Origin: Pseudoalteromonas sp. NC201
GTDB taxonomy: Bacteria; Pseudomonadota; Gammaproteobacteria; Enterobacterales; Alteromonadaceae
Direction: 5' to 3'
Assembly (NCBI RefSeq): GCF_002850255.1
Contig: NZ_CP022522.1
Coordinates: 1,158,501-1,222,500, forward strand
Length of the DNA: 64,000 nt
In this document: positions 5,427 through 24,260 of the stretch, one piece after another
Layout of the letters: the number at the start of each line of letters is the position of its first letter
Position numbering within the stretch: position 1 is the first letter of the stretch
Program-made: the position numbers and the translations under genes
The notes under the pieces: model-generated
Seen by the model: the letters and a program-made list of their open reading frames with translations, nothing else
What the model was told of the DNA's origin: nothing
The model's database searches: none

Positions 5427-5454
5427 AAGCGCCGAGCTATTTTTTGCGGCGCTT
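5427..5454. terminator. Hairpin between convergent genes
   Basis: Perfect 8-bp arms AAGCGCCG / CGGCGCTT enclose a 12-base loop containing a T run. It overlaps the last codons of the capB-like gene and lies just after the stop of the small membrane protein. It may end transcription from both sides, though no long T tract follows on either strand. Confidence 0.45.
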
Positions 5455-8400
5455 ACCATTTTGTAACTTCAACCATCCCGGTTTTTGCGAACGATTTAAT
5501 TCACTTAAAATAAGGGTTGCCTTTTCTATTGTGATCCTAAAGTCGGCGATATCTTTGTATACCTGAACTGCTATTTTCTTTCTTTTTACCGCCGCGCCGG
5601 CATCTAAAAATGACTCGACCAATTTATTCAAAAAGCGTGTTAGCGGCGAGCGAGCTCGGGTATTATCTTTACTTCCTAAGCGTTGTATTTGTTGCTCTAG
5701 TTTGCGCTTTATTTGCGTTAATTCGGCTTGGCTAAATTCGCTTTGGGCATTGGGCAACGCTTCGAACAAGTCGAGCTTGTCAGCTAAGTATTGGCATTCA
5801 ATCGCGCTGAGTTCCTCTTGTTGTAAAATTCTACTTAAGCCATTTCTAAACTCAGTTTGTGTCACGTTGCGGTGGCTCAGACGCTCGCAATGCTGATTAA
5901 ACAACTGCCACTTTTGCCACATGTAAACATAGCCCAGTCCCGCGCCTTTGATATTTTGCATGCCGACGATAATTTGGTGTTCATTTGGCAGTGCTTGTTT
6001 TGCAATGATTTGGTTTAAAGCATCAGGCTTGATGTCGCTATCATGCACTAACGTACATTTGAGAGAGGCAAGTTGCTCTGCAAGCGCTGCGGTTTGCGAA
6101 AGCCTAGTGCTCAGGTCTTCAACTTCCAAAAGCGACTGGGCAATTGTCCACGCTTCAAAACGCTTTAGAGTAGGATGATGTGTGTCGTCCTCATTATTAA
6201 GTTGCGACTGCAGCGAGTCGAGGCTTGAAAACGCAGACTCAGGTAGCTTGTCTGTCGTAGTATTTAATGATGCGATCAGCGCATCTCGCGATAATGTGAG
6301 CCTAAGGCGCCTGAGTAAATCGCGCAGTGCGTTGTGGTCGTTATTGCTGAAAATACTGTGTAAGAGATTTTCCAGTGCAACCATAAAGTACTTAAAGAAG
6401 CCATCGATATTGGTGCCGATCACCACAATGGCATCAAAATGCAGATCATTGGCCAGAATGTTCGCAAATACTTGCGAGCGCGCTACACGGTCGTTACGAT
6501 TATTAATTAATGCAACAATTTGCGCCTGCTTTCCCTGTTCGACGATGTTTAAGCGTTTCCAATTTTCTATCGTTGCTAGGCGTTCGTTGGCAGACATGCT
6601 GTTGATAAAGCTTTGACTGATTGCACCAATCTTTGCAGTCGTAAACTGCTGAAGCACGCCAACATCGGGAATAACCCTAGAAGCCGTTTCTTTGAACACA
6701 TAGTCTTTATTGATGCCAATATATTGCGCCATTTTGCAGACTAAGGCGATGTTATCCGGATGCTCAACATAGGGATATTTTGCGAGAATGTCAGGCGTTA
6801 TTTGATACCCATCACCCCAATGAATCTGAATGAGTGACGTGTTTTTTTGCTCCGCCGCCAAGTTGAGTACTGAAGCCATATTCTGCTCGGCGGTGAACAC
6901 TTGGGTGTTGTAACCCAAAAAGGCAGACATCTCTTTTGCTACATCCAAGCCTGTTGGGCCTAAAATATCTTCATGATCTGGGTAGGCATTAGTAATGGTG
7001 GCGAAGTTATCTTTCATCCAGCGCACTAGAATTTTTACATATCTCGGAGTCAGGCCCATACATTCCCACAGGAAAACGTCCGCTTTTACCTGCTTTGCAA
7101 AATGTAGCACATCAGCTTGCTCCCAAATACTCGCTTTGTCGAAAGGCCGAAATAGTGGGATCTCATATTGCTCACCAGAAATTTTTGAATAGATAAGCAT
7201 TGCTTCACAGCCCGTGGTCTTGCTCACGACTCTCAGCGCCAAACTGCTAAATAAGGCCGACTTCAGCCTCTCGGTTCCTGATTTTCCTCGTGTTCCCCAG
7301 CCGCCAATGGACACCGGAATGTGTTTTCGATTTTGTTTTATTCTTTTACTGACATAAATATGCCGAGTCCAAAAGTAGCTAATAAATGCAAGCACAAAGA
7401 AAACCAGCTGCGAAATACTATTTTGATAAATGGCATCGACGTATTCTTTAAAACTGCTCCAAATGGTGAGTAGCGCAGAGGTGACACCAGAGCGAGTATA
7501 AAGTTGCTGAATGTCTTTCGCGACAGGAAAAGGCGTTTTTGCGATGTCGCCATAGGCACTAAAGTGTAGAGAAAACCCCAGCGTGTTAAGTGCATCCAAA
7601 TACTTACCTTGCTCAAGTTCGTTGCCCTTTCGTAAGCGGTCTAGTTCTGCAAACTGCCATGTTATGGTCCAGTACGCCTTAAGGCGTCGCCACAAAGTCG
7701 ATGGCGGAGTAACGGCTAAAATACCATCCGGCGTATAGGTTTTGGCGTCTTCTTTACTGTGGTCATTAGTCAGTACACTTAGCAAAAAGTCGAGTAATGG
7801 TAGATGTGGTCGACTCGTTTGTTCGGCGATATTAAAGAGCAACTCCCCCGGCACTTTTGTTTCGCTAATTTCCGCGGTAGTGCAGCTAGGGACGTGGATC
7901 GATACGCTGGGCTTTTTCGCTTTGGTATGGGAATAGCTTTGACGTTTATCGGTACTTGGTTGTCTTATTTCGTGTATTACTCGCCATAATCTTCTTGCTT
8001 GACGATATCCTTGTTGGATACGCCAGCCAGCTTTTGTTTTTGAGGCATTAAGACTTTGACCGCGCTGTGCAATATAAGAAAGTGAGCGGCCCAGTTCATC
8101 ACGAGACCAAGTTGCCAATGCGTCACTTTGTTCGTTGGCTTCAAGAGAAGCATTGAGCTGCGCGATGATGGCTTGATGATAGAAGCTACCTAGCTGTTCC
8201 CTGGCTCTGGTGATATAACGGCAAACGGCGATGTTTGTTTCGTTCGATAAGCAGTCATTTAAGGTATCAATAAACCGTTTGAAGCAGAGTTCGGCTTGAT
8301 TTGATTCAAGTTGCATATTCAGCATAATACGTGCGCTTTGCTCAAGCGCTAAGCGCTTGAGCTGCATACTAAAGTCGCCTGTTAGCACACGTTGCCACAG

Positions 8401-9504
8401 TAAAAATGCAAAGTCCTGCTGGCAAAAGCGGTCTGCGGATAACTGTTTTATCAAGGTGAAAAGTACGGCATTTTCACTCTCTTGCTCAAACCGTTTGGCG
8501 ATTAACTCTTGTGCAAAGGATGTGGGATAAAACTCGACAAACTCTAGCGTAACCTGGCGCACCCTAGGTAAGGTGTGCTCGCTGAGTGCACAAAGCATAT
8601 TGAGGTCTTTTTCTGTAAGCTTTGGCTGGCTGACAATAATTTTAGGGAAGATACTCAAAATATAGAGCACTTCTGCATCAACTTGCTGACTATTTTCAAT
8701 GTCGTTCGCTTCTTCAAGCAAAGCCCACATGTAGGCACGAATAAAGGTGGGGCGTTGATGTATTAAGATCTCTAGAATATCGACGGTGGCTTGATAGGGC
8801 ATATTGTCAGACTCAAGCAACTCAATAAGTTTGGCGATAAGCTCTGCGTCTAATTCCGAGTCAACCTCATAGTTGTTCAAGGTTGCGACCATATTCACCA
8901 ATGCGCGGATCAAGCCATGACGAATATGTTGATTTTGGCTATGGGCGAGTAAGTTTAAGCAAAATGGCTGCAAATCCAAACGTTGCCAAGCATTTTCTAG
9001 AGTATCGTGATGAGCACGTAAATATCGGTTAGTTAGGGCGCCAAGTTTGGCAATTAAAAACTTAATTTGCTGTTCTATCGTGGCAACTTGATGTTGATAT
9101 CGAGCAACTACAGCGCCTTCGTCAAACCATCGTGAAAATGCTTTTTTATCTTGTTCTAACGCGACTTTAGTGGTGCCAAGTTCTTGAGCATAGGCGATAA
9201 TATGTAGCTCTTTTTCGCTGGCAAATTCAGACTTAGCGATACGCTGTACAAATCCGGTGTGGGATACCTCGAGCAGCAAAATTTGCTCATGTAGGGTCTC
9301 AATTTTATGCCGCAAAAAGGCGATAGATTGAAGTACCAGCCAGTCGGTTTCATCCTCGTTTTCAGGGCGATTGTAAATGAGTTCCCATGCACACAATTCG
9401 TCGATCAACGCACTGTATTTATGTTGATACAAGTTCAGCCAAAACTTTTCAGTTTCGGCAAAAAATAGGGCTTCTAATTGACTCTTTAAGGCTTCAACGC
9501 TCAT
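5437..9504 (-). CDS. capB: Giant CapB/PgsB-like Mur-ligase-fold amide ligase
   Basis: A 1355-residue protein, over three times the usual size of CapB/PgsB (about 390 residues). Residues 1 to about 430 are helical with HEAT/ARM-like repeats. A hydrophobic segment (about 708-724, SQLVFFVLAFISYFW) precedes the ATP-binding loop GWGTRGKSG at 735-743, the signature of the CapB/Mur ligase fold. Further matches are CEAMLIYSK, ITNAYPDHEDILGPTG and, in the ligase C-domain, ALINNRNDRVARSQ. About 300 helical, basic residues follow. CapB/PgsB joins glutamate through its gamma carboxyl using ATP at the inner membrane. The polymer made here could be polyglutamate or another amide polymer. The start overlaps the preceding gene by 11 bases, so it is the last gene of the operon. 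Confidence 0.72.
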   Translation of the reverse strand: MSVEALKSQLEALFFAETEKFWLNLYQHKYSALIDELCAWELIYNRPENEDETDWLVLQSIAFLRHKIETLHEQILLLEVSHTGFVQRIAKSEFASEKELHIIAYAQELGTTKVALEQDKKAFSRWFDEGAVVARYQHQVATIEQQIKFLIAKLGALTNRYLRAHHDTLENAWQRLDLQPFCLNLLAHSQNQHIRHGLIRALVNMVATLNNYEVDSELDAELIAKLIELLESDNMPYQATVDILEILIHQRPTFIRAYMWALLEEANDIENSQQVDAEVLYILSIFPKIIVSQPKLTEKDLNMLCALSEHTLPRVRQVTLEFVEFYPTSFAQELIAKRFEQESENAVLFTLIKQLSADRFCQQDFAFLLWQRVLTGDFSMQLKRLALEQSARIMLNMQLESNQAELCFKRFIDTLNDCLSNETNIAVCRYITRAREQLGSFYHQAIIAQLNASLEANEQSDALATWSRDELGRSLSYIAQRGQSLNASKTKAGWRIQQGYRQARRLWRVIHEIRQPSTDKRQSYSHTKAKKPSVSIHVPSCTTAEISETKVPGELLFNIAEQTSRPHLPLLDFLLSVLTNDHSKEDAKTYTPDGILAVTPPSTLWRRLKAYWTITWQFAELDRLRKGNELEQGKYLDALNTLGFSLHFSAYGDIAKTPFPVAKDIQQLYTRSGVTSALLTIWSSFKEYVDAIYQNSISQLVFFVLAFISYFWTRHIYVSKRIKQNRKHIPVSIGGWGTRGKSGTERLKSALFSSLALRVVSKTTGCEAMLIYSKISGEQYEIPLFRPFDKASIWEQADVLHFAKQVKADVFLWECMGLTPRYVKILVRWMKDNFATITNAYPDHEDILGPTGLDVAKEMSAFLGYNTQVFTAEQNMASVLNLAAEQKNTSLIQIHWGDGYQITPDILAKYPYVEHPDNIALVCKMAQYIGINKDYVFKETASRVIPDVGVLQQFTTAKIGAISQSFINSMSANERLATIENWKRLNIVEQGKQAQIVALINNRNDRVARSQVFANILANDLHFDAIVVIGTNIDGFFKYFMVALENLLHSIFSNNDHNALRDLLRRLRLTLSRDALIASLNTTTDKLPESAFSSLDSLQSQLNNEDDTHHPTLKRFEAWTIAQSLLEVEDLSTRLSQTAALAEQLASLKCTLVHDSDIKPDALNQIIAKQALPNEHQIIVGMQNIKGAGLGYVYMWQKWQLFNQHCERLSHRNVTQTEFRNGLSRILQQEELSAIECQYLADKLDLFEALPNAQSEFSQAELTQIKRKLEQQIQRLGSKDNTRARSPLTRFLNKLVESFLDAGAAVKRKKIAVQVYKDIADFRITIEKATLILSELNRSQKPGWLKLQNGKRRKK

Positions 9505-12500
9505 GTAAATCTTGCTCTAATAAATGACTTAGCTGTAACGATTCAAAAATAATTTCATCGTGAGCATAGGGGGCAAAAGCGGTTTGCTGTAAATTGCCTA
9601 AACGTACTTGTAGCCCAACCTGATGGGTATTGTTAAACCAGTCTTGAGTCCAAGTTACACCTAACCAACCCGCTGTGTTATGACTAAAGTCAAAACCCGT
9701 TTGCCAACCCAATTGAGTTAAGTATTGCCATGTTGGATTAGGACGGTTCTGATCGGCAAATACATAGCTTGATGTTAATCCAGCGTGGAAAATATGGCCT
9801 TGATAAAATTGATACCAATCAAATGAAAACAGTGCATTGTCGAGCGTTTGCCAATCTTGATTTGACGTCAGTGTAACGCCGGAGCTGAAGTAACTATCAA
9901 CCCAAGGCTGATAGCGCAGCCCAGCATGCGCTTGCCAGCCGTGCTTATGATTATTACGGTAAAAGGTGTACATATCAGGGCCAATTTGCTCATCTGCAAT
10001 AAATTCGTCCTTGCTGATACTGGTGTAAGTGTAAAAAGGCTGCCACCACCAAATGCTTCTAAAACCGCTGTTATAACGGTGAATTTGGCCAAACTTTGTC
10101 GAAATACTAGAGCTTAAATGGGTTTCACTGATAGCCGTTGCATCCTGCCAACGATTGCGTACCCTCGCTTCTGCAAACCAGTTCGACTGCTGCGAGAGCC
10201 AATCGTATTGACCATTGATAGAGAAGGTGTCTTGGTGATGATTATCCATCGTGTAGAAAGTATCGATGCGGTACCAGTTATTCTCATCCTTCACTCTCAA
10301 CGATAAACCTAAATCGAGTGTAGTACGGCTAGGGCTAGGCTCCGTTGTTTGCACAATGTCGTCGCTATCAATATTCAAGAATCCTTCGACGCCAGTGCGA
10401 CTTTCATCAGTTTCAATGCGAGCTTGCTGAAATTTGGGCTCAGCATTTGTTGGTGTTAACTGTTGTTTGGCTTTTAAGAACATTGGCACTTCAGGTACTA
10501 GGTTAACGCGATGCAATGTTGGACTTAACGCCCAGATAGACATGCGTGCTAACGTTTGCTGTTGTTGGCCGGTTAGTGAGACTTGTCCTGCCGGGTGAAA
10601 ATAGGTGGCTTCATTTCTAATACCATTGGCAAAGGTTTCAATTTTAATCAGACTATCTCTAGTTAATTTCGCCGTGATTGGGGTTGTTTCATCAGAGCGA
10701 TAAAAAATTTGCCTCGTATCCAATGGGATATCATGCCATTGACCTTGGCCAAAGTATTGCGGACGTACGCTAACGCTTTGCCCCGATAAAGGGTTGAGCC
10801 AACGCAATTGCAATAGTCCTTGTCGCGTCTCAACTTGTTTAATGCCGTAATAGAGCGGTTGCGTTGGCTGCAGCGAGATCACATCACCTTGACTTGGCCC
10901 CACCAGCTCTACATTAGCAGGCGGTGCCACGATTTGCTTGGCAGCAGAGTAGGCAAACTTTACTCTTACTTGAACTTGTTGATACTCAGAAAAATCAATA
11001 GTCAGTATTTCGTTTGCTCTGAGTGGCAGGCCTGACGGCTGATTTTCTGTGAGGTGTGCGGTGATCTGGTCACCAACGCTTTGCGCCGCAAGCGTATCAA
11101 CTTTTACCTTTTGTGTGCCCACATAACTCGTGTATTGTTCCGCAGCAAGCCATTGACCATAGCGCATCAAGCGGGCATATAAATCGGTTAAAACGGCATC
11201 ATCCGATAAACTGGGGTGCAGACGTTGAAGGACCCTGTTGTAGCTTTCGTTAGACAATGTTTGCTGACTCAGTTGATACAAGGCATTTATCGCAATTTCT
11301 TTAGCACTGAGCTCATCTGCTATGTTCGCATCAGTGCTACTAACCAAGTGCGCAGACTTATCTGCAAAAGCCGGAGTGTTAGCGGTTTCTGGTTGCACCC
11401 GGATCTCTACAAACAACTCATTACTACTGAAAAGTGTGAGGCTTTCATTTGCCGCTAATTGAATATATTGCTGCGATGCAACAGATAATCGAGTCGCTTG
11501 TGGCTGCAATTGCAAGTTTGCTGCAATATCACTAAATATGGGTAAAATCCGGGTTTTGGCGTTGTGTTCATATAGCAGCCATTGAGTATTTTTGTATTCT
11601 TGTCCTTGGTACGCAGCACGTGCACTTAGCTTGACCGTCAAAGGCGTTTTAGCAACCAGTTTGATGGGTTTACCTGAACCTAGCGGGTACAGCTCAGTTT
11701 GATTATCCAGTGACTCCACGGCTTGTAGGTCATAGTGATTAAGGCTGTATTGAGGCTGGGTCAGTTCGTTTGTTTGAATTGCCGCGACTTGTTCGGCCTG
11801 TTTTGGTGTTAATGCCATTTGCTGGCTTGTCCACAGCGCTTCTTGCTGAAGCCCGGAATCAAGTAGGTACGTCAACAGGATATCATCGCATTGATATTGC
11901 GTGATATCGGTTTCGTGGGCAGCGCATAATAGGCTAGCTTGGATATATTCATTCTGTGCTAAATATCTCGTGAGTAGTTCATTGGCAGCGTACTCTCTTA
12001 AAGATTGAGCGGTGCTTTTTAGCAGTGATTTTAGTAATACCTCGGCGTTTCCACTGCGTTCTAGCTGAGTCAAAATAGTAATATTCAGTTGCCAAGCCAT
12101 TAACGCAACTTGCTCACTATGCCCACTCAAATACGGCTTCAGTTTCGCAAGTGCCATGAGTGGTTTGGTCTTTGCTACGATTTGCAGCTCCGCAAGCACT
12201 TTGGTGGCGGTAAACTGGCCGTGGCTGTCTGTCTTAACACTTAGTTCCGGTGCACTCAGCCCGCTAAGAGATAAATAGTAAGTGTCCGCTCGATTTTGTT
12301 TGCTTCTCGCCAGCAGACCTTGAACCAATGACCCTTGGCCTAGCGCTTCTTGCGTCATGGTTAAGAAGTCGGGAAATGGTTGTAAGCGGTTTATTGCTAC
12401 AGCGATATCAAGCGCTTGCTTAGCCCCTTCAATCATCACAACTTTGGATGCTGGATTCATGTGTAGGGTAAGTCTTTGAAAATGACTGCTAGGCGCAACA

Positions 12501-13717: not shown

Positions 13718-14448
13718 TTAGTAAACTGCTCTAGTTGTTGATTGTTATTAATTAATTGCTTTCTTGTTTGATAGCTTAGCTCAATATGGATAAAGCTATA
13801 TTCAGGAAGCGCAAGCTGATGCATGATATTTTGCGTCCCGCCAAGTTCTTGCACTTCTTGAGGGTAAATCAGCGCCCGATAACCTTGCTTAACAAGACAA
13901 GACTTCAACTTCCATAGTGTGTCGTCATTTGTTTTGCCTTGGCTTAAAATTATTTCGCTTAGTTTACCGGCGTCGGTTTTTCGCTTCTTCTGACTAAACC
14001 CATGTATTTGGAACACTTTTGCTATTGGGTGTAAAGATGTAAAAGCTATGATAGCTGACGCGTGAATATTGTGAGGTTGCTTGGCGTAATCATAGGTTTT
14101 ACCAGTGTCATTGTTATCGTATCTGTGTTTTGTGTTGTTCAGTAACACTTGGCAACTGTGCTGGAAAATGTGCTCACCAATGGTCAGCGTATGTTTATCA
14201 TGAAAGCGATGTGGAACAGACACCACGCAAGGCCGATGCGTTGGCGCATACGTGACTTCGCCGTGCGCGTCACTTTGAGGCTTTGGCGTCAGTGTAAATT
14301 GCTCTGCTTGGTGCGTAAATTGCCAGCCATCGAGCGCTACAGGTTGGTTAAACCATTGCGCCATCTTGCTGCTGTCGGGAATCGCAGCGTTAACATTCAA
14401 TGACAGGCACAATGTAATGTAAAGTGCGTAGCGACTAAGGTGTCTCAT
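13696..14448 (-). CDS. Periplasmic protein, candidate zinc amidohydrolase (N-formylglutamate amidohydrolase / polyglutamate hydrolase-like)
   Basis: A 250-residue protein with a signal peptide (RHLSRYALYITLCLSLNVNAA). The segment CVVSVPHRFHDKHT and the later strands VFQIHGFSQKKR and FIHIELSYQTRKQL fall in the order seen in N-formylglutamate amidohydrolase and phage polyglutamate hydrolase folds (PH-x-x-x-D/H, HGF/HSF, HIELS-x-x-x-R). The assignment is by eye and tentative. A periplasmic hydrolase that trims or releases polymer would suit the surrounding capA/capC/capB-like genes, and depolymerases such as CapD and PgdS often accompany such loci. It overlaps its neighbours by 14 and 22 bases. 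Confidence 0.45.
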   Translation of the reverse strand: MRHLSRYALYITLCLSLNVNAAIPDSSKMAQWFNQPVALDGWQFTHQAEQFTLTPKPQSDAHGEVTYAPTHRPCVVSVPHRFHDKHTLTIGEHIFQHSCQVLLNNTKHRYDNNDTGKTYDYAKQPHNIHASAIIAFTSLHPIAKVFQIHGFSQKKRKTDAGKLSEIILSQGKTNDDTLWKLKSCLVKQGYRALIYPQEVQELGGTQNIMHQLALPEYSFIHIELSYQTRKQLINNNQQLEQFTKCVQSLL

Positions 14449-16687
14449 CTTGCCACCAGTTTAATGTTGCATCAGGCTGTTCATTTTCCTCTAGTACACT
14501 TATCCAAACATCATGTGAAAAGCGAAGCGTCATGGTTTTAGGCGATGTTAAGTCTTGAAACAGCGGCAAAGTAATACTTGGGTACTCGTACAGCTCCGCG
14601 TGATTAGGGTTAAAAAACATCCTCGTTTGTGCTGGGTTTAGATGTAGTACAAAGTGTTTAGTTAAAATGGTGTATTCATCGCTTGGGGTGATTACCTTAG
14701 TGCTATCCAGAGCGGTTGCTACCGTAATTTCATCTTCAGGGTCGGCACTAAACACTTTGACGACCAAAGCGTTAGGTTGCAAGTTATCCTCGCTAACAGC
14801 AACAGTGAGTGGCGTTGCTTTCGCTACTTTGTACAGGCGGATCTTCCGCACGGTTCTTGGGATCCCTTGATTGATGAAAAGTGCTTGGGTATTAGCTAAC
14901 TCCTCTATTTGTAAGCTGTTTAGCGGAACTTCAAATAGTGTTGGTTTACGCTTTTGCTTCACAATCACACTGCTTGGGTAGCTTGTTGCTTCACCGAGCT
15001 TAAAGAGCGCAGATTTGGCTACCTGACGATATTCAAACTCCATTTGCGGTACTGAGTTATCAAAGTAAGCTTGCTCAATGGGCACCAACGCGATATCCGA
15101 GACAGCTAAAAGCTGCTCTAAGTCTTTGGAGCGGTATTGAGGCAGCAACTCAGGTACTTCTGGTGGTGCTTCAAATAAGCGCACCGATGCTATCTGCTTT
15201 TGTGTGTGAAAGAGGTAATGGTTGTCGGCCTTTTGGCTAAACCATGCGTCAATACCTTGATAAATTGGACTTTCAGGGTCACACACTGGGTAGCAACGAT
15301 GGCTCAGGTAATTAAATGTTGGGCTGCGGGCTTGCAGCTTCACCATCGCATCTTCGGCTTCAATTTTGATTTGATTAACGTTATCTGGTATTGCCAAATA
15401 ACGCTTCTCTGCGGTTGGTAAGGTTTGTCGCTCCGTGGTTTCAGTTATCAGTCTATCGAACAAAGCTTGCTCCGCCGTTGCGGTAAAAACGTAGTCCTTG
15501 ATCCGCTCACTGTTGTTATAGAGGCTCACAGAGAGAGTGCTGCCCATGGGCGCGCGCCACTCTAAAGCGACATCGCTTTTAGGAGAGACTTGATAGTAAA
15601 CCGGCGTTTGCGCGTTGAGCATATAATAATAACTATGCAGCGGGACTATAGGGTCGACGCCATTGCTAAATACCCGAATGCTGGTGGGGGCGTTTGCGCT
15701 AATGGTAACAAGGCCTGTAGGTAAGTTGCTCAGTCTAGATTGGGTAGTGGCTAGCATCTCAGGAGTTAGTCGCTTAGGCGCGCTGAGTTGGCGTAAATCA
15801 TGCCAAACAAAAGTAAGATTTGCATTTTCGGGATGGCTTAATAAATATTCAGTGTGTTCATAGACACGAAAACTGGCGCTTAGCTGCTCCGAAATCAACA
15901 AACTGTCTAAGTCTAGCTGGGTCGAAAAATCATGATTAAGCACATTGTAGGGGAGTGACTCATATAACAAGTCAGCACGAAAGTCGATGTTAGGCACGCC
16001 CTGTGGCGCTAGCTTTTGCCAATCTAACATGACCGAATTGTATTTTTCTTCGTTGGTTAAGGCGTTTTCACCTATGGTGTGGTAATTCGTCATGCGTTCA
16101 CGCCACTCAGTTGGCCTTTTCAGCCATGCTTTGGCAGGGTCGATAATACTGTTACTGGTTTGGGCATGGACGCGTACTACCACGCCTTTAAGCTGAGCAT
16201 TTTCTGGTATTAGCTTTAACGTGATGGTTGCAGCCTGTTGTAACTCTTCACGATTTAAATAAAAGGATTGTCCAGACGCCACGGCCAACGCTTCACGGTT
16301 TTCAATGATCTGTTTTACTTGTTGCTGAAAGTCGTTCGAGGCGGCTTTAGCTGCATGGTGATAAGTACCGCGATAAATAATCGCTCCTTTTGCATCAAGT
16401 AACTGATATTCAATAGCATAGTTGACGGGCTGATCATCCAGTGGTTGCGATTCGAATATCCCATTGGACAACACCCGAACAGACATGGTCCGAGACGGAG
16501 AAAAGGAAAACTTCAGTGCACTGTCGGTTTTTAGCCAATGAACATTGGAGCGAATATTAAACAAGGTCGAGGTATTTGAAGGCTCCGCCGATTTTACCCA
16601 CACAAATAAAGTGACGGCGAACCAAACAAAAAGTAGCAGCAAAGCCGTAAAAATAGCAAATCGTAATACCTGCTTAATCCAGTACAT
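14435..16687 (-). CDS. Inner-membrane-anchored periplasmic protein of the capABC-like operon
   Basis: One N-terminal transmembrane helix (about residues 8-30, FAIFTALLLLFVWFAVTLFVW) is followed by about 710 residues of soluble, beta-rich sequence that should lie in the periplasm. I do not recognise a family. The start is set at the ATG at 16687 because an AGGGG ribosome site (minus strand of 16692-16696) lies just before it. Two upstream in-frame ATGs (16714, 16699) overlap the CapC-like gene further and lack such a site. Its size, bitopic layout and translational coupling suggest a structural partner bridging the inner-membrane synthase and the outer-membrane barrel. Confidence 0.6.
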   Translation of the reverse strand: MYWIKQVLRFAIFTALLLLFVWFAVTLFVWVKSAEPSNTSTLFNIRSNVHWLKTDSALKFSFSPSRTMSVRVLSNGIFESQPLDDQPVNYAIEYQLLDAKGAIIYRGTYHHAAKAASNDFQQQVKQIIENREALAVASGQSFYLNREELQQAATITLKLIPENAQLKGVVVRVHAQTSNSIIDPAKAWLKRPTEWRERMTNYHTIGENALTNEEKYNSVMLDWQKLAPQGVPNIDFRADLLYESLPYNVLNHDFSTQLDLDSLLISEQLSASFRVYEHTEYLLSHPENANLTFVWHDLRQLSAPKRLTPEMLATTQSRLSNLPTGLVTISANAPTSIRVFSNGVDPIVPLHSYYYMLNAQTPVYYQVSPKSDVALEWRAPMGSTLSVSLYNNSERIKDYVFTATAEQALFDRLITETTERQTLPTAEKRYLAIPDNVNQIKIEAEDAMVKLQARSPTFNYLSHRCYPVCDPESPIYQGIDAWFSQKADNHYLFHTQKQIASVRLFEAPPEVPELLPQYRSKDLEQLLAVSDIALVPIEQAYFDNSVPQMEFEYRQVAKSALFKLGEATSYPSSVIVKQKRKPTLFEVPLNSLQIEELANTQALFINQGIPRTVRKIRLYKVAKATPLTVAVSEDNLQPNALVVKVFSADPEDEITVATALDSTKVITPSDEYTILTKHFVLHLNPAQTRMFFNPNHAELYEYPSITLPLFQDLTSPKTMTLRFSHDVWISVLEENEQPDATLNWWQDETP

Positions 16688-19600
16688 AACGCCCCTCATG
16701 AACCGCTTTTGCATAAGTGGCTAAATCAATAATGCGATTTCTTCTTGGTAAGTATAGCGCGAGCAGTGCGTTGTCACGGGTAAACATTAATCCCAGCTCA
16801 CCATTTCTATGCGTGCTAAAGGCGCTTATTTTACATTGGCTTTCAAATTGACAAAGTGCTTGGAGCACCGGTAAATGTTGGGTGGTGGCATAACGCCCAG
16901 TGGCCACATTAAGTGCGTCAATAAATTGTGCACTGGCCTCATGCCAATCATTTGGAGAGAGGGCAAGCAAATCGATTATTTTGAGTTTAGGTGTGTGTGC
17001 AACGGCTAAAAGGCGTTGCAATAAAGCATCGTTGGTAATGGCAAAGTGCGATTTAAAATCTGATGCCAACCACAGTGCTGCTAACTCACTTTTTGGCGCG
17101 AACAGCTGATACCCCGACTGCGGTGTGGTACCGAGTTCTAATCCTCTGGTTGCTTGTTGTCCTGAAACGGTTTGAGTATTAACACCAAGATCAGCTAGCA
17201 CCCTTTGAAGTTTAGCAATAGTGTCATTATGAATAGGGTTAGGCGTTGTGAATTGGTATGCAAGCGCTGAAGGTCTGATGCTTGCTGGCGCGCTATGACT
17301 GCGGATCTGTAAATTAAGTAAGGGGTTATCATAAAAGTAGCGCTGTGCACTTTGATACACCACATTAAATAATGACCGCACGTTGTCGGCTGCCATTACA
17401 TTTGCATCTATGCTGGTATACGGATGAGCACCAGCGATTGCCAGTAACTTTGCATGGGTGGCCGTAAACAACTGCCCAGAGAACTCCAAGGTGTTACTTT
17501 CAAAGAGTGGTCTAGGCACCGCAATGGTGAGGGATGGTTTAGCCAGCAAGGCAATAAAGTACACCCCTTGACCCAAATTATAGGCAGATTTGGTATCTAA
17601 AGGAGAAATTGCAACGAATTGCCCTTGGTTATTTTCAACTAAAGTTAATTGATACTGTAATAGGTTTGCTACGCGATTTATCTGGCTCAACCTTACCTCA
17701 AGCGTTTCCGGCGTTGTTACTATCTCGAGGTTTTGGGTGATGGCAAATAGCGGCCTTAACACTTCATATTCCCACAGTGCAGCACTGGTATCGCTCAGTG
17801 CGCTAAATGCACCGCTACCCTTGGCGCTAATGTGACTAGAAAATGCTTCAATAAGTGCCTGTATGCTCTCATCACTTGTGCTTATTCTATCTATGTCTTT
17901 GTCGATACGTTGCAGGCCATATGCGCTTAGCAACGACGAATAGCTATCCGAGTTTAAATACGCCTCAATCATCTGGCCATGGAACTGGTTGTAAGGTAAA
18001 GGTGCATTTGCCGCGAGACCAAAGTGTGCATCGTTGATGTTAAACAAGGTAGCAAGTTCAGATTGTTGTACTGAGCTTGGCACACTGTTAAATATCCACA
18101 TCTGTGCGTCTTCTTTTAAACTGTGTTGGTGCATCAACTGGCTTACTTGCCGATTAATTTCTCTGAGTTGGACGACCTCTGGAATATCCATCGCCATAAA
18201 AAAGTCACTATAGAACTCGCTTTGTTTACCGTTCTTATCGCCACTTTGGTTAGGTCGCGCATTGCCAAACGCCATTGCCTGGCTTTGCCAATAGGAAAAC
18301 AATATCCCACCCGCCTCACTGGCAAGCCGCTCTGCAGTGGGGTAGGGGACGCTGATGATATGGGCTTTTTGAGCAGTTAAATTAATGATAAACAGACCGC
18401 GCTTGTGATCTTGTTGATTGTCTTTTATTACTAAAAATTGTGTTGTACGTTGCAAAGAAAAGTCGGCTTGACGCAGTAAGGTGGCGGCCTCGACATAGTG
18501 TGACTCACTATCCTGCTTAAGCAACCTAATTGCTTGTTTAAAGTGGCTACGTTGCTGCTCGGTCACATATTGACTGACATTAACGTTAGCCGCATTTTGA
18601 GTATACAGCTGGCTCTTGTAATTACTGATCACTTGGCCGAGCGTTAAATCGCTGGCTGTTTCATTTATCGCTAATGTATTACTTTGTACGAATAGGCTTG
18701 GAATAACCATAATTGCAAAACCGATACAGATGGCGATAAAGCCACCAACAATTGAAGTTTGAAAAGTTGCACGGATCACAAGGCCTAGCGCATTTTTTTG
18801 GTAAATTTTAAGGGCGAGTAAGGTCGATAGCATGTAGCCAAAAGCAAAGGTATCGGTCACTTTTAAGGTTGGGAAGTAACCGACGACGACGTAGTTTAAA
18901 ATCAGTTTGTAGACAAAGCCGATATTAAAAAACAGCAGCATGAGTCGCGCGCCTTCGATATTGGCGTGTTTTAAACGGGTAAAGTTTAAGACTACATATC
19001 CAAAGACCAAAATAATCGCTGTTTCTACGAATGATGTGAGCAGCTTAGTGGGTTGCATCAGTTGTAGTGCTAGCAGCGCTGGCAGCATAATGCCATTGAA
19101 TTCCCAGCCGTACTTTAAATTAGCCCTTGATGCGATAAAAGCGGTGATCACCAAGATAATATAAGCTTTAGGGGCTGCAATAATTGAGGCTGCAACAGCT
19201 TCGTACATGACGGCAAGATTGGCAATGCTAAAGTTGGTAAACGCCATCAATCCAAAACGAATGATGATATAGGTAACAACCAACTGAATAGCGGTGACTT
19301 TTATGCCATATTTAAAGCCACCATTCCACATTACATTGGCGGTCAAGGCGATGATAATCAGCCCGAGGCTATACAGCTGTGCGGCGTAATCAAAAGTGAT
19401 GTCCCATTGTGTTAAGTACGCGGCGACCAGCGGCCAAAACAGCACATCCATGGTAACTCGAACAATAATGCTTAACAAAACGATGGCAAAAAATCGGTCA
19501 CGGCCAAACATTTCTGCATAGCCCAGTCGCTCAACAAGTGTTTTGGCAAAAAACCGCATTAAGCTATAAACAACAATGGCCTCAACAATGATCACCCAAG

Positions 19601-19778
19601 CCGATGTTGGGCTCACGATAAATAAAGGGACTAGGTAACCTGGCACCACTAAACCAGTTAACGGGAAACCAAACCTTAGATTGAAAAATGCGACAACCGC
19701 GATGCCTATCCAAACACACGTGATAACGGATTGCCCAAGTCCGCCCGCGCTTGGGAATAGCGTCAGCGTCCAGTCCAT
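16674..19778 (-). CDS. capC: CapC/PgsC-like membrane protein, duplicated and fused to a periplasmic domain
   Basis: A 1034-residue protein; PgsC/CapC is normally about 150. The first ~150 residues match PgsC closely: GFPLTGLVVPGYLVPLF, then YAEMFGRDRFFAIVLLS and DVLFWPLV. A second, weaker copy follows at about 215-345 (YGWEFNGIMLPALLAL, FGYVVLNFTRLKHANIEGAR, FAFGYMLSTLLALKIYQ). After the last helix (about 360) some 650 residues lie in the periplasm and seem to hold two related units, each with a GLFII/GVYFI strand, an I-x-VP-x-P turn and a GA-P or GNARP end. PgsC partners PgsB in polymer elongation and transfer at the membrane. An AGGA ribosome site precedes the ATG, directly abutting the previous stop codon. 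Confidence 0.7.
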   Translation of the reverse strand: MDWTLTLFPSAGGLGQSVITCVWIGIAVVAFFNLRFGFPLTGLVVPGYLVPLFIVSPTSAWVIIVEAIVVYSLMRFFAKTLVERLGYAEMFGRDRFFAIVLLSIIVRVTMDVLFWPLVAAYLTQWDITFDYAAQLYSLGLIIIALTANVMWNGGFKYGIKVTAIQLVVTYIIIRFGLMAFTNFSIANLAVMYEAVAASIIAAPKAYIILVITAFIASRANLKYGWEFNGIMLPALLALQLMQPTKLLTSFVETAIILVFGYVVLNFTRLKHANIEGARLMLLFFNIGFVYKLILNYVVVGYFPTLKVTDTFAFGYMLSTLLALKIYQKNALGLVIRATFQTSIVGGFIAICIGFAIMVIPSLFVQSNTLAINETASDLTLGQVISNYKSQLYTQNAANVNVSQYVTEQQRSHFKQAIRLLKQDSESHYVEAATLLRQADFSLQRTTQFLVIKDNQQDHKRGLFIINLTAQKAHIISVPYPTAERLASEAGGILFSYWQSQAMAFGNARPNQSGDKNGKQSEFYSDFFMAMDIPEVVQLREINRQVSQLMHQHSLKEDAQMWIFNSVPSSVQQSELATLFNINDAHFGLAANAPLPYNQFHGQMIEAYLNSDSYSSLLSAYGLQRIDKDIDRISTSDESIQALIEAFSSHISAKGSGAFSALSDTSAALWEYEVLRPLFAITQNLEIVTTPETLEVRLSQINRVANLLQYQLTLVENNQGQFVAISPLDTKSAYNLGQGVYFIALLAKPSLTIAVPRPLFESNTLEFSGQLFTATHAKLLAIAGAHPYTSIDANVMAADNVRSLFNVVYQSAQRYFYDNPLLNLQIRSHSAPASIRPSALAYQFTTPNPIHNDTIAKLQRVLADLGVNTQTVSGQQATRGLELGTTPQSGYQLFAPKSELAALWLASDFKSHFAITNDALLQRLLAVAHTPKLKIIDLLALSPNDWHEASAQFIDALNVATGRYATTQHLPVLQALCQFESQCKISAFSTHRNGELGLMFTRDNALLALYLPRRNRIIDLATYAKAVHEGRYVLD

Positions 19779-21752
19779 CTATTCCTCATCCCACTCTTCA
19801 GGCAAAAGTTGCTCGTTAACCGCAAGCTGCTCTGACAAGTGTGTTAAAAAGGCTTCTTTATCATCTAGCTGAGATAACTGCTCGCCAAGGTCAATAAATT
19901 CAAACAACACCCCGCTGGTTTCAAATGGGGTGCTGGCGTTAAGGCTGGTTGATTGTTTGAGTAAGGCGCGAATGCTCAGTAAATAAGTTCGATTGTCTAA
20001 ATATACGGGTAATACGATTTTGCCACGTTTTAAGGTTAAATAGCGCAGCTTTCCTTTAGCTTGTTCACTATCCATCTCGGTACAGCGACAAAGTAAGTCT
20101 AAGGCGGACATGTCGAAAATAGACAGCTTATGTTCTCTAGCAAAGCGTTCAAGAGATTCATTTACCTGCACAATTTGGCCAAATAAGTTATATAAAATAC
20201 TGGCACTGTGAAGCTGGTTGAAGACATGCTCCAGTGAGGTGAGTTTTTGATCCATCTCATTAATTGCATTTTTGATTTTATGACTTAGTGGCTCTTTCAG
20301 AGAAAAGGTCAGCGCCCGAGTCAGTGTGCTTTTGAGGTTTTTTTGCTCAGCAGAAAACACTTTATAGTGGAATAATAATTCACCGATTTGATGTGCAAAG
20401 AGATTTACATTTTTAATAAATGCTTGCTCATCAAAGTTGTCTTGAGGAGTGACGGTTAGCGCCCAAAAACCCCGAACATCACCTGCGTACATCAAAGGCG
20501 CGATATACTGCTGCTCATCTTCCGCTAGATGTTGGAAGAAAGGGCGGGTAATTTTGATAGCACCAAACGCTTTGATTGCATCGGAATAAGGTACTCGCTC
20601 GTAGTCTCGTCGCATCTCTAAGATATCACTGAGCTGACAGTGTATTGCGCGTATTTCAGTTACTCTGTGGTCACCCTCTAAGCGAGTGAGAAAGATACTT
20701 CTTCTCAGATTAAGCTGCTGATTAACCAGTTGGATGATTGCATCCCAAGGTTCATTATGCTCAAGAAAGTGCCGTGGTAGATATCGACCCATCATACGTT
20801 GTTGGATCAGGGCTATGAGAGATTTTAAGTTTTCTTCTTCTGACCATTTCAAAGAGATAAACACCCAAAGTAGCGTCAGCCATATCAAAGATAGCAGCTC
20901 ACCAAGCGGCAATAACACGGAGTACCAATGATGCGCAGCAAGGCCACTTATGATCAGTAATATGCTGGTGGATATCGCAATGATGACATTGGTCTTGGTC
21001 GCATTTCTTTGGTACCACACTAAGAAAAATATTGATGCTAGTACCATGAGTGCGACTATCGTCACTTTATTTAAAGGCTGAATAAAGCTGTCGGATGCAA
21101 AGCTATTGGCAATAAATGCTTGTAGGTAAACAGGCGGAAGTTCTTGCGCACCAAAATAAGCATTACTATTCAAGCGTGAAAATTTTGAGTGCTGAGCAAC
21201 TAAGATGACCTTTTCGCTAAGTTGTGCGGTGAATAAGTCACCATCAAGCACTCTCTGCGCACTGAATTTTGGTAGTGAATAATAAGGCAGCGAGTAGTCT
21301 ATGATTTTGTTGAGGTATTCACCATGCTGCGGAAATATTTTATCCCACAATATGTCACACGCGCCTGCTGGTGGTGCGAGGCTGATTGCACTGCCGTACC
21401 AATTTTCTGTTTCCAACAGACAAACCGATTGCGTATTGAATGGATAGTAAATTGAGTCATTGTTTTGTTGTGGTGAAAGTTCGGTATTTGCAAAGAACAC
21501 AATGGCTTTTGGTTGATAGCCAGAGAGTATTTTTGCTAACTGCTGATGTTGTTGCTGTAAGTTTTCCGCTTCAATCACGACTACTTGCGTTGCTTGCGTG
21601 GTGTTGAGCTTGGAAAACCATTGTAACCCAATTAGGTTTACCTGTTTATATAAGCCTGATGCTGACGCGATCAACAAAATAGCGAATAAACTCATAAATA
21701 GCCAAAACTCATGTTGGCGTTTTATAAAGTTTAATTGACTAAAAATCGACAT
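19779..21752 (-). CDS. CHASE2-like membrane sensor with GAF/PAS-like modules and no output domain
   Basis: About 657 residues from the ATG at 21752; a GTG at 21761 is an alternative. An N-terminal helix is followed by a ~180-residue periplasmic segment. Three closely spaced transmembrane helices (IVALMVLASIFFLVWY, IIAISTSILLIISGLA, LLSLIWLTLLWVFISL) complete the usual CHASE2 layout. The cytoplasmic part has a GAF-like region (about 335-480) and a PAS-like region (about 510-640, NLFGQIVQVNESLERFA). No kinase, cyclase, GGDEF or phosphatase motif follows. CHASE2 normally feeds such outputs, so this protein probably regulates its operon partners by contact. It sits between the capA-like and capC-like genes, 13 bases from the former and abutting the latter. 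Confidence 0.55.
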   Translation of the reverse strand: MSIFSQLNFIKRQHEFWLFMSLFAILLIASASGLYKQVNLIGLQWFSKLNTTQATQVVVIEAENLQQQHQQLAKILSGYQPKAIVFFANTELSPQQNNDSIYYPFNTQSVCLLETENWYGSAISLAPPAGACDILWDKIFPQHGEYLNKIIDYSLPYYSLPKFSAQRVLDGDLFTAQLSEKVILVAQHSKFSRLNSNAYFGAQELPPVYLQAFIANSFASDSFIQPLNKVTIVALMVLASIFFLVWYQRNATKTNVIIAISTSILLIISGLAAHHWYSVLLPLGELLSLIWLTLLWVFISLKWSEEENLKSLIALIQQRMMGRYLPRHFLEHNEPWDAIIQLVNQQLNLRRSIFLTRLEGDHRVTEIRAIHCQLSDILEMRRDYERVPYSDAIKAFGAIKITRPFFQHLAEDEQQYIAPLMYAGDVRGFWALTVTPQDNFDEQAFIKNVNLFAHQIGELLFHYKVFSAEQKNLKSTLTRALTFSLKEPLSHKIKNAINEMDQKLTSLEHVFNQLHSASILYNLFGQIVQVNESLERFAREHKLSIFDMSALDLLCRCTEMDSEQAKGKLRYLTLKRGKIVLPVYLDNRTYLLSIRALLKQSTSLNASTPFETSGVLFEFIDLGEQLSQLDDKEAFLTHLSEQLAVNEQLLPEEWDEE

Positions 21753-21765
21753 GCTTTTCACTCTC

Positions 21766-23970
21766 TTATTGCTGGCTGAAAGTGAGAGTCAGCTCAGTCG
21801 TCTTCGTTGCTTTTACTTTAATAAATTCTAAGCCATGAATTTGCTCGCTTTGCCACTGACCGCTCTGAAGTTGCACTGGACGCTGCCACGAAATCATCGC
21901 AATATCATCTAAAAATAAGGCACTTTCACCGCTGCTTGGTGGCGACATGGAGAGGCCAAACTGGACGCCACGAGCAGGCAGCCCTTCATCGCCAAGCACA
22001 ACGGAATCGTCAGGTAAGGTAATATCTTGTCTAAACGTTTGCCACTCATAACTACCCGCAGGCTTTAATTGGGGCGTTGACTCAGAAAAGATAAGGCTAT
22101 CTTCTGATGTTAAGATACGAATATCAGCCTTAAACTCACCAGCGTTCTCTCCTTTGGCATAACCAAAGAGCGAGAGCTCATGGTAAGCCTGTGCCGTGCT
22201 CGGCGCTGGCGTAATAGGCATGGTACGAATTGTGTGTTTGAACGGCACACGCGTTGGTGTTTCGTTAAATTGCGTTCGTTGTAGACAAAGTCCTTGTACG
22301 CCACGATATTTACCGACTAAACATGGCGCGATATCGTCGGCCTCAATTAACCAACGAGAGACTTCCCCTTTTTCGTTATCGCTATCCCAGTCTTCAAAAT
22401 CCCCAAAGAACAATAAGTCTCGACCAAGCACAATCTCTGCTTGAGCATCACTAGCCGTGAGTTTGCTAAGGAACTCAGCACTGCTTGAATATTGGCGTAA
22501 ATCGACAATATGCTCACCGGCTTCTAAGGTAATAACTTGTTGCTCGGTTGCTTTTGCTTGAACCGGTTTATCAAAGGTGACTTCTGCAAATCCCGGGCGC
22601 AATGAGATACCAACTTCGGGTGAAGAAAATTCAGCGATACGTTTTAGTAGGGCATTGGCAAGATCGCCACTTACAAACTTAGGAACATAGTCTTCTAGAT
22701 AAACGGGATAGGCTTTTAGTGCACTGATTTTAGGTGAGCCTGCAGTTTCTAACTCTACCACAGCTATCAGTCCCAAAAAGGTTTCAAGACGATTTTGCTC
22801 AAACACAAAGTTGCCTAGTCCAAGTATGCTTGGTACGCCATTGTATAAGCCAAACCCTTGCGCAACGTGAGGATGATGCGCAATCATCAAGTTAGCGCCA
22901 TTTTTGGAAAGTAAATCAAAGCGGTTTGAAATATACGCCGTTGGTGCGTATGAATACTCATCACCGCCGTGAAGCTGAGCCACAACAAAGTGGCCGTTGT
23001 TACTGGCTTGCATCACCGTTTCTTTCATGCCATTGGTATCTGTTAGATCGGCAGCTCCCCCTTTAGCGTCTGATGCCACATAAGTGACGGTATGTTGATC
23101 GCCTGTAATGGAAGTCGCAGACACAAAATCTATCGGTGTTTCACCAAGGCTTAGGCTGTAGGGCTTAAATGCCTCTGCCGCACTTGTACCCGCGCCACTG
23201 TATTTAAACCCTGCCTGCTCGACATACTTCAAGGTATCGTTCAGTCCAGGTGCTCGATAGTCATAGACGTGGTTATTGCCAAGTGCTACATAGTCAATAC
23301 CCAAATCATTGAGGGCAATTAATGACTCCGGCAGACTAAAAAATGCGAACTCTTTGCTTGGGTGGACCGTGGTTGGGTTTTTTAGGATTGGAGATTCCAA
23401 GTTAACCGAAGCGAAATCGACATGTTTAAATAAAGGATGCATAAACTGCACTAGGGCTTGGGCATCAGGTCCTGCGCTTTGGGGCTGGATAAGTCCGTCA
23501 GGGGTGCTGGGCAATGAATTCCCCATAGTAATGAGAGCAGGGTTGAAATAACGACGCCCAAACATGGTATCACCGGCAAAAAGTAAGGTTTTTAGCGTGC
23601 TCGACTTAGCTTTTAGTTCAAGCGTGAGCTGCTGCTCATTGTTATTTTGATTCGCTAAGGTAAAAACCAAGGGCAAATAATCTGGGTGGGATATTTCTGC
23701 GACATAAGCGCCGTATGCTAAAGCCGACAGGTCAAAGATACCATTGTTATTTGAGGTAAATAACTGATCATTTATCGTGAGGCTAGCATTGGCAATGGGG
23801 GTTGCATTTGCGTCGTGCAAACGTATGCTTAAATTGGGCGTCTCGCTATCCCTATCTTGTTGGCTTTTATCTTCATCCTTATCTATTTGTGAAGGACCTG
23901 TTTCATTTGGGTCCTCGACTGAGCAGGCTGTGAGTGCAAATAGCAATACTACATTTAAGATTTTTTTCAT
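21766..23970 (-). CDS. capA: CapA/PgsA-family lipoprotein with extra N- and C-terminal domains
   Basis: A 734-residue lipoprotein: lipobox FALTAC puts the acylated Cys at position 16. Residues ~46-115 look like a carboxypeptidase-regulatory-like beta domain (PIANASLTINDQLFTSNNNG). Residues ~125-430 are the PGA_cap (CapA) domain with metallophosphatase-like motifs: FAGDTMFGRRYF, LGNNHVYDYR, AQLHGGDEY, IAHHPHVAQG and ILGLGNFVFEQ. The C-terminal ~220 residues resemble a jelly-roll carbohydrate-binding module (GDFEDWDSD, ALFLDDIAMISW). CapA/PgsA is the outer-face component of the polyglutamate synthase complex. It is the first gene of the seven-gene minus-strand operon, with tyrR diverging upstream. 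Confidence 0.8.
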   Translation of the reverse strand: MKKILNVVLLFALTACSVEDPNETGPSQIDKDEDKSQQDRDSETPNLSIRLHDANATPIANASLTINDQLFTSNNNGIFDLSALAYGAYVAEISHPDYLPLVFTLANQNNNEQQLTLELKAKSSTLKTLLFAGDTMFGRRYFNPALITMGNSLPSTPDGLIQPQSAGPDAQALVQFMHPLFKHVDFASVNLESPILKNPTTVHPSKEFAFFSLPESLIALNDLGIDYVALGNNHVYDYRAPGLNDTLKYVEQAGFKYSGAGTSAAEAFKPYSLSLGETPIDFVSATSITGDQHTVTYVASDAKGGAADLTDTNGMKETVMQASNNGHFVVAQLHGGDEYSYAPTAYISNRFDLLSKNGANLMIAHHPHVAQGFGLYNGVPSILGLGNFVFEQNRLETFLGLIAVVELETAGSPKISALKAYPVYLEDYVPKFVSGDLANALLKRIAEFSSPEVGISLRPGFAEVTFDKPVQAKATEQQVITLEAGEHIVDLRQYSSSAEFLSKLTASDAQAEIVLGRDLLFFGDFEDWDSDNEKGEVSRWLIEADDIAPCLVGKYRGVQGLCLQRTQFNETPTRVPFKHTIRTMPITPAPSTAQAYHELSLFGYAKGENAGEFKADIRILTSEDSLIFSESTPQLKPAGSYEWQTFRQDITLPDDSVVLGDEGLPARGVQFGLSMSPPSSGESALFLDDIAMISWQRPVQLQSGQWQSEQIHGLEFIKVKATKTTELTLTFSQQ

Positions 23971-24260
23971 TGTGGCCAGCCTGCTTTCAAAAAAGATACA
24001 TTATTTAATTCTTTAGTATTATATCTGTAACTCTTTATGTGTTGCAATCCTTTGAAATGGAATGTAAGTTTCCAAATCAAAAACTTAACAAGCGCTGAAA
24101 AATGCCTTGAAAAACAACTTTTTTCAGTTCTTCATTAGTATAGGACAAGAATTTACGAAGATAGCTAAAATTCTGTTCAATATTCTTTACGTTTTTCTAG
24201 TCGGACAGCTATTCTTAGAGTATGATCTCGTCAATTGTGAAAACCCGCTTTGAGGAACAA

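Follow-up and report, generated by a model that had tools for sequence, protein, structure and literature searches.

The exporters of the Pga, Pel and cellulose polysaccharides combine an inner-membrane synthase, a periplasmic hydrolase and a barrel in the outer membrane that reaches far into the periplasm by an arm, and, to our knowledge, the route by which a polyglutamate-like chain would cross the two membranes of a Gram-negative cell is an open question. The available parts of two surveys count CapB and CapC homologues without giving a route to the outside (PMC4497714, PMC5542703). One reports PgsB and PgsC homologues together in 250 species of 58 genera (PMC4497714); the other models a polyglutamate (PGA) capsule locus with CapB and CapC as mandatory genes, CapA and CapE as accessory genes and no PgsS (the polymer-releasing enzyme), and finds it in most phyla (PMC5542703). 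Among Gram-negatives, Francisella and Cloacimonadota carry CapB, CapC and CapA homologues that are reported as three genes, with a barrel, hydrolase or CHASE2 gene unmentioned in the portions of these papers that are accessible (PMC4688374, PMC13082233). The hydrolases PghP and PghL are described as being of phage origin (PMC4497714, PMC6506827, accessible parts). Here we describe a capBC-containing operon of seven genes in a 64,000-nucleotide stretch of Pseudoalteromonas sp. NC201 (contig NZ_CP022522.1, positions 1,158,501 to 1,222,500; hereafter the window). The evidence favors a version of the Bacillus capsule machinery for which we found no published description, and whose strongest new facts are a conserved six-gene unit, a hydrolase with a predicted PghP fold, dead hydrolase copies within CapC and a modelled 14-strand porin.

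Seven minus-strand open reading frames (ORFs) occupy positions 5437-23970 in this genome (5.38 Mb, two contigs), just where a first-pass annotation of the sequence had placed them, and they encode 6199 residues altogether, against its estimate of more than 6000. In the direction of transcription the order is CapA, CHASE2-like, CapC, bitopic, hydrolase, barrel and CapB. Taking the start of each longest ORF, neighboring genes are separated by gaps of 4 and 0 bases or overlap by 41, 14, 22 and 11 bases; the earlier figure of 0-13 bases was right for both gaps and the 11-base overlap and too low for the other three. That annotation had staked its CapA-, CapB- and CapC-like assignments on significant profile matches, and these were found for all three proteins (PF09587, TIGR04012 and PF14102), while the CHASE2-like, bitopic and barrel proteins of the window have no Pfam match at E 0.1. 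With PgsBCA (CapBCA) of Bacillus the system shares a PgsB-type ligase domain, a CapC-type membrane domain and, in most Pseudoalteromonas, CapA. It differs in the length of CapB (about 1355 amino acids (aa), compared with frames of 405-414 aa in two classical-length matches), in a CapC whose membrane domain is doubled and which carries two dead copies of the hydrolase, and in including hydrolase, bitopic, barrel and CHASE2 genes in the unit while CapA is optional.

Table 1 Positions of the operon's genes, their domains and a promoter candidate (coordinates in the window).
Feature	Position	Strand	Basis
CapB-like ligase, 1355 aa	5437..9504	-	TIGR04012 2.6e-66
PgsB-type ligase domain, CapB residues 705-1040, P-loop GGWGTRGKSGTERLK	6385..7392	-	
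Outer-membrane protein, 1407 aa	9494..13717	-	predicted model; signal-like N terminus by eye
14-strand beta-barrel, residues ~1108-1375 of the 1407-aa protein	9593..10396	-	predicted model
Putative periplasmic zinc amidohydrolase, 250 aa	13696..14448	-	fold model; signal-like N terminus by eye
Bitopic protein, 759 aa, one transmembrane (TM)-like segment (12-44), large presumably periplasmic part	14435..16714	-	
CapC fusion, 1034 aa	16674..19778	-	PF14102 2.3e-29 in two stretches
Second pseudo-hydrolase domain, CapC residues ~732-917	17028..17585	-	hhalign to hydrolase family
First pseudo-hydrolase domain, CapC residues ~438-551	18126..18467	-	hhalign to hydrolase family
Membrane part of CapC with its two repeats, residues 1-360	18699..19778	-	internal hhalign
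CHASE2-like membrane sensor protein (putative), 660 aa	19779..21761	-	hhalign to CHASE2-type proteins, TM-like segments
CapA-like putative lipoprotein, 734 aa	21766..23970	-	PF09587 6.6e-48, residues 128-392
Candidate sigma-70 promoter 5' of capA (TTGCAA-18-TATAAT)	24018..24047	-	10/12 match

Scanning a genome collection with a CapC alignment yielded 123 relatives, of which the best 80 were analyzed as loci (48 from Pseudoalteromonas and 32 others); the closest named CapC matches are Pseudoalteromonas, including P. flavipulchra, at 95-99% identity. The conserved unit is CHASE2 - CapC - bitopic - hydrolase - barrel - CapB. All six genes stand in this order in 48/48 Pseudoalteromonas loci and in 17 of the 32 others, so the co-occurrence in other genomes that the first-pass annotation had asked about is real; because part of the counted loci had also served to train the profiles, these counts show order and not independent sensitivity (capC lies in two frames in L099 and L102 and was scored as present). 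The remaining 15 comprise three loci that lack only CapB, where the DNA ends, three alphaproteobacterial loci without the barrel and nine loci with fewer of the genes, of which seven are truncated where a contig ends (the exceptions are L109 and L083). The loci outside the genus come from Gammaproteobacteria (Pseudidiomarina, Zhongshania, Thiodiazotropha, Colwellia and others), Alphaproteobacteria, Zetaproteobacteria, and deltaproteobacterial, Campylobacteraceae, planctomycete and verrucomicrobial metagenome-assembled genomes (MAGs). Wherever CapB was seen outside the genus, the barrel gene usually adjoins it (17/20 loci), and the trees of five operon genes have correlated distances (r 0.64-0.92 across 20 non-Pseudoalteromonas loci, with no housekeeping-gene control), which joint inheritance of the unit would produce. 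The three barrel-less alphaproteobacterial loci, from Qipengyuania and a Sphingomonas MAG (L111:7055-18376, L112 and L113), hold CHASE2, a shorter CapC of 846-863 aa, a bitopic protein of 266-270 aa, the hydrolase and a long CapB.

Searches with tblastn around CapB matches in relatives covered 20 loci. All six core genes were present in 18/18 same-genus loci, two of which lack CapA, at identities of 91-97% in two close relatives and 29-57% in the other 16. Two loci of other families showed four or five of the six genes at 22-33% identity, with the barrel or bitopic gene at or below detection. The operon is more than a chance arrangement, since its order recurs in all 18 of the additional loci from the genus and also beyond the family, the class and the phylum. 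Among 274 class-sampled genomes (the window's included), the hydrolase profile matched eight at 1e-5, five of them at <=1.5e-49, and the PgsB profile matched six at 1e-20, as four frames longer than 1350 aa and two of 405 and 414 aa. The hydrolase lies on the same contig, ~6-7.5 kb away, in four of the four long-CapB genomes; neither genome with a classical-length CapB has a hydrolase match, and the fifth strong hydrolase (G256) stands alone. A sample of 398 genomes from the phylum contained six with a strong match to the CapC fusion, 6/6 with a long CapB, which are not independent because they are the window's genome and five of one family. A seventh long-CapB genome (G501) also shows the end of the barrel gene before its 9.3-kb contig stops. 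One genome (G332) matched only CapC residues 705-794 and was not counted as carrying the system.

CapA, in contrast to the conserved core, is an add-on. The set had been described at first as CapABC plus four other proteins, a description that had to be abandoned because CapA is dispensable: it was seen in 43/48 Pseudoalteromonas loci (missing from 5/48) and in 0/32 others, the latter count being limited by loci that end near the CHASE2 gene. In the CapC tree the five Pseudoalteromonas loci without CapA group as a single clade, with support 1.0. A genome-wide search with PF09587 in four system-bearing genomes (two Pseudoalteromonas without CapA in the operon and two of other families, 85% and 91% complete) found nothing over the cut-off and one sub-threshold match. 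The window's own CapA exceeds that cut-off amply (163.9 bits compared with 27), and it consists of a lipobox-like LTAC near the N terminus (by eye), a carboxypeptidase-regulatory-like domain and a PGA_cap domain at ~22795-23589.

We next consider the hydrolase, which had been annotated as a candidate zinc amidohydrolase. By fold, it is predicted to belong to the group of PghP and the N-formylglutamate amidohydrolases: its model (mean pLDDT 92.2) adopts the PghP/PghL fold, and the best Protein Data Bank (PDB) matches of the model are 3a9l, 2odf, 2q7s, 5onj and 21dc, in keeping with the annotation. The proposed zinc residues (H80, D84 and H149) and catalytic residues (E223 and R229) are identical in 120/120 hydrolase sequences (rows of 230-345 aa for 119/120). 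Compared with PghL, the order of these residues and the Arg at Glu+6 agree, the latter features being invariant in 120/120, while an Asp replaces the zinc Glu. The enzyme thus resembles PghP/PghL (PF05908) and N-formylglutamate amidohydrolases in fold and in how the proposed zinc and catalytic residues follow one another, and it differs from PghP/PghL in forming a separate family below the Pfam cut-off, in this Asp, in a signal-like N terminus and in being encoded inside a synthesis operon. Its sequence profile returned nothing of weight from the PDB. Named homologues of the hydrolase, and most of those of the barrel protein, are labelled 'hypothetical protein' in databases. Stand-alone genes of the hydrolase family, without the operon, occur in other Gammaproteobacteria (L114:9574-10575, L115:9141-10463, L116:9563-10639 and L117:9362-10435), and the genomes with solo hydrolases (G198, G180, G226 and G256) were not counted as having the system.

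The profile first built for CapC also caught hydrolase ORFs, and the alignments were then rebuilt apart. Aligned with hhalign, the hydrolase family matches two stretches of CapC (~438-551, 97.0%, E 8.3e-11; ~732-917, 97.7%, E 1.6e-12), and the two stretches match each other (99.3%, E 1.5e-20). Because these are single-pair E-values, weight falls on the controls: the CapC membrane part gave 0.1% with the hydrolase family, and the bitopic and barrel proteins likewise. The membrane part is itself repeated, with residues 1-178 aligning to 179-362 (118 columns, E 1.8e-5, probability 78%). In the second domain, H80, D84, H149, E223 and R229 align with R756, E760, R826, W903 and K909; in the first, H80, D84 and H149 align with Y479, E483 and R539. 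Among the 120 top-scoring CapC proteins (the best 120 of 895, with three CHASE2 proteins in the alignment left out of the count), R756, R826 and W903 are each found in 119/119 readable sequences, the 120th being truncated there; R539 is present in 96/120, and both zinc His in none for the first domain. A more diverse, locus-based set of 45 (proteins of 1000-1130 aa), in which the arginine pair is less clean, retains R756 in 40, R826 in 44, W903 in 45 and R539 in 41. As judged from these alignments, CapC is a duplicated membrane domain fused to two degenerate hydrolase copies, which have lost the active site, mostly with fixed replacements; the first-pass annotation had not recognized this fusion. 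The protein passes Pfam PF14102 (102.7 bits, cut-off 27) and falls below the PgsC equivalog TIGR04011 (45.3 bits, cut-off 96.45). Its sequence profile gave nothing of weight against the PDB, and a tblastn search of a plasmid collection with CapC gave no match. Homologues carry the database label PgsC/CapC.

CapB consists of a long N-terminal part, an amide ligase domain and a C-terminal extension. The match to TIGR04012 reaches 223.9 bits (equivalog cut-off 222.7) and spans only positions 4-329 of 380. The P-loop GGWGTRGKSGTERLK is identical in 24/24 CapB sequences, in which invariant positions make up 28% of the ligase part compared with 5% of the N-terminal 700 residues and 3-4% of the rest. 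HEAT_2 was detected in 8/16 family members and not in the CapB of the window, and the CapB profile returned nothing of weight from the PDB. Ahead of the ligase domain, residues 500-560 (window 7825-8007) form a highly conserved linker, without a named domain, in which KRQ, H526 and VPGE are invariant in 16/16.

The barrel protein is modelled as a periplasmic part of helical repeats and beta-rich structure followed by a C-terminal 14-strand porin, which agrees with the outer-membrane barrel of the first-pass annotation. The nearest folds are CymA and OmpG, with matches also to PelBC, 4y25 and BcsC; by sequence, no match of weight to the PgaA, PelB or BcsC families was found in Pfam or the PDB. 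Like the Pga, Pel and cellulose exporters, the system would pair an inner-membrane synthase and a periplasmic hydrolase with an outer-membrane barrel on a long periplasmic arm, and unlike them it has an amide ligase in place of a glycosyltransferase, CymA and OmpG as nearest barrel folds and no detected sequence kinship. The best PDB profile match, a PPR protein at E 0.001, was set aside as generic helical-repeat similarity. One of 22 barrel proteins has a SPOR domain, a domain that binds peptidoglycan. The bitopic protein matches the barrel protein weakly (49.6%, E 1.7e-4), no Pfam family is common to more than one of its 22 members at E 0.05, and its profile found nothing of weight in the PDB (one match, E 0.24).

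The CHASE2-like membrane protein of the earlier annotation was corroborated by comparing the operon family with five CHASE2-type proteins, one of which is Pfam-verified (hhalign 96.9%, E 1.3e-10). It appears to comprise one N-terminal TM-like segment, a periplasmic CHASE2-like domain, a TM-like stretch (226-307) and a cytoplasmic part. Among 22 family members at E 0.1, 13 match PF05226, 10 HATPase_c and 3 HisKA. The window's protein has no PF05226 match at that threshold and no detected kinase domain, and it is shorter (660 aa, compared with mostly 840-930 in the family). By profile, 20/32 non-Pseudoalteromonas loci and 0/48 Pseudoalteromonas loci have a stand-alone response-regulator receiver gene that separates CHASE2 from capC (for example L024:3036-3410, PF00072, 7.7e-24, and L090:9606-9998); a text pattern undercounted it (10/32). 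Outside Pseudoalteromonas, the CHASE2 gene often resembles a histidine kinase gene, often followed by a receiver gene, a feature that the first-pass annotation lacks. A Thiodiazotropha locus has another gene, ~4 kb upstream of the operon, for a distinct CHASE2-GGDEF-EAL protein (L080:859-3429), and L087 has a protein like it, by profile only.

Upstream of the operon in the window is a gene for a TyrR-type regulator (24222-25817, plus strand). The promoter candidate 5' of capA is weak, because promoter-like sites are rarer in the region than in shuffles (25 compared with a mean of 33.5); sigma-54 type patterns were sought upstream of capA and none was found. Downstream, a gene at 2978-3994 has matches of the UDP-GlcNAc 2-epimerase and CDP-glycerol glycerophosphotransferase types (1.5e-12 and 2.3e-12) and adjoins a nitronate monooxygenase-like gene (4108-5148).

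The gene set, its order and co-occurrence, the homologies, the predicted folds and the residue conservation are computed results, and we infer the identity of the polymer, the topology, the direction of transport, the binding of polymer by the dead domains, trimming and sensing. The operon probably encodes a diderm system for synthesis, trimming and export of a polyamide, akin to PgsBCA joined to a synthase-dependent exporter. CapB, a PgsB-type ligase that uses ATP to form amide bonds and has a large scaffold at its N terminus, would add amino acids, most probably gamma-linked glutamate, and the growing chain would be held at the duplicated CapC membrane domain and cross the inner membrane there. 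The two dead hydrolase copies of CapC may hold the chain on the periplasmic side, where arginines at the former zinc sites would suit the gripping of a polyanion. The active zinc amidohydrolase would cut stalled or misplaced chains or set their length, the bitopic protein may bridge the periplasm, and the chain would exit through the 14-strand porin, whose periplasmic arm makes the barrel protein resemble PgaA, PelB and BcsC. The CHASE2 protein may sense an envelope or extracellular cue, and CapA would be an optional addition to the machine. More tentatively, this could be a separate class of trans-envelope polyamide secretion, with a dead hydrolase pair as arginine grips, hand-over by the bitopic protein, a dedicated porin and a live paralogue that proofreads or cuts.

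Several observations weigh against this account, and some of them suggest other ones. CapB clears the PgsB cut-off by 1.2 bits, and only 4/21 strong-match genomes pass it (the window's included), so the substrate of CapB is not assignable from the profile. The hydrolase falls below the PF05908 cut-off (15.7 compared with 22 bits), only 1/8 of its family members match PF05908, its fold fits N-formylglutamate amidohydrolases as well and, less closely, carboxypeptidases, and its likeness to PghL extends to residue order and the Arg at Glu+6, with the PghL specificity residues His77, Thr79 and Ser80 outside the comparison. These borderline scores would suit the same machine working on another polymer, in which CapB joins a different amino acid or makes a mixed amide polymer, and in which the hydrolase, forming a separate family, cleaves that bond specifically. 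We consider this the strongest of the alternatives, albeit an unlikely one: ligase, CapC and hydrolase fold all point to glutamyl chemistry, and the Arg at Glu+6 is kept as in PghL.

Nor is replacement of zinc His by Arg universal in the locus-based set of 45 CapC proteins, where site 756 is Ser in three Pseudidiomarina and Met in an Alteromonadaceae MAG, and where a verrucomicrobial MAG has Gly at 756 and His at 826. The His at the second zinc position of this last protein (L110:864-3944) perhaps marks a copy that has degenerated less, or else an error of alignment. In three alphaproteobacterial genomes the barrel has no match inside or outside the operon, and export through the barrel is therefore not universal. 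These genomes, and the SPOR domain of one barrel protein, fit a polymer that stays periplasmic or is attached to either peptidoglycan or outer membrane, with the barrel as anchor or release valve. With the barrel next to CapB in most loci outside the genus, and with a porin-like fold that matches PelBC, 4y25 and BcsC, we regard this as somewhat less likely again than a different polymer.

Two loci also depart from the unit. In a planctomycete MAG, receiver, capC and bitopic genes (L109:265-8122) are followed by unrelated opposite-strand genes, and hydrolase, barrel and capB were not found on this 10.3-kb contig; in a Campylobacteraceae MAG, three unrelated-looking ORFs lie between capC and the bitopic gene (L083:4372-6722). 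An ordinary PGA capsule locus, in which CapB and CapC do their known job, the other genes are loosely attached helpers and no new mechanism is involved, would accord with the published model, where CapB and CapC are mandatory, CapA is accessory and PGA systems occur in most phyla. The operon does hold both mandatory genes, as judged by Pfam and NCBIfam homology and not with the authors' own profiles (PMC5542703, accessible part); with regard to the model's exclusion of PgsS, it does contain a hydrolase with the predicted PghP fold. The six-gene order across 48/48 and 17/32 loci, the correlated gene-tree distances (subject to the missing control) and the hydrolase copies inside CapC itself nevertheless make so simple a locus improbable. 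CymA and OmpG, the closest barrel folds, are uptake or general porins, and a hydrolase with an outer-membrane porin, together with solo hydrolases away from the operon, could be read as scavenging or remodelling (external polyglutamate taken in and cut, with CapB in another role), but uptake leaves no role for a conserved ATP-dependent ligase together with CapC and the seven proteins matched no transporter family for cut products, making this very improbable.

We return to a diderm system for polyamide synthesis, trimming and export. Among the matches listed in the open-licence PubMed Central literature, with subscription papers and supplements outside its scope, no such system is described and no account of a CapC fusion with dead hydrolase copies was found; given that scope, the CapB/CapC pair of the genus may well be in survey tables. 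The accessible parts of four papers mention neither the hydrolase/barrel/bitopic/CHASE2 unit nor the CapC fusion (PMC4497714, PMC5542703, PMC13082233 and PMC4688374). The database labels PgsC/CapC and 'hypothetical protein' hide the six-gene system. The operon offers candidate parts for every step of a route across both membranes: a porin, a live hydrolase and the putative conversion of an enzyme into a binding domain with a conserved arginine pair. If the more tentative reading, a separate class of polyamide secretion, is true, the system would be the polyglutamate counterpart of the Pga, Pel and cellulose machines for polysaccharides.

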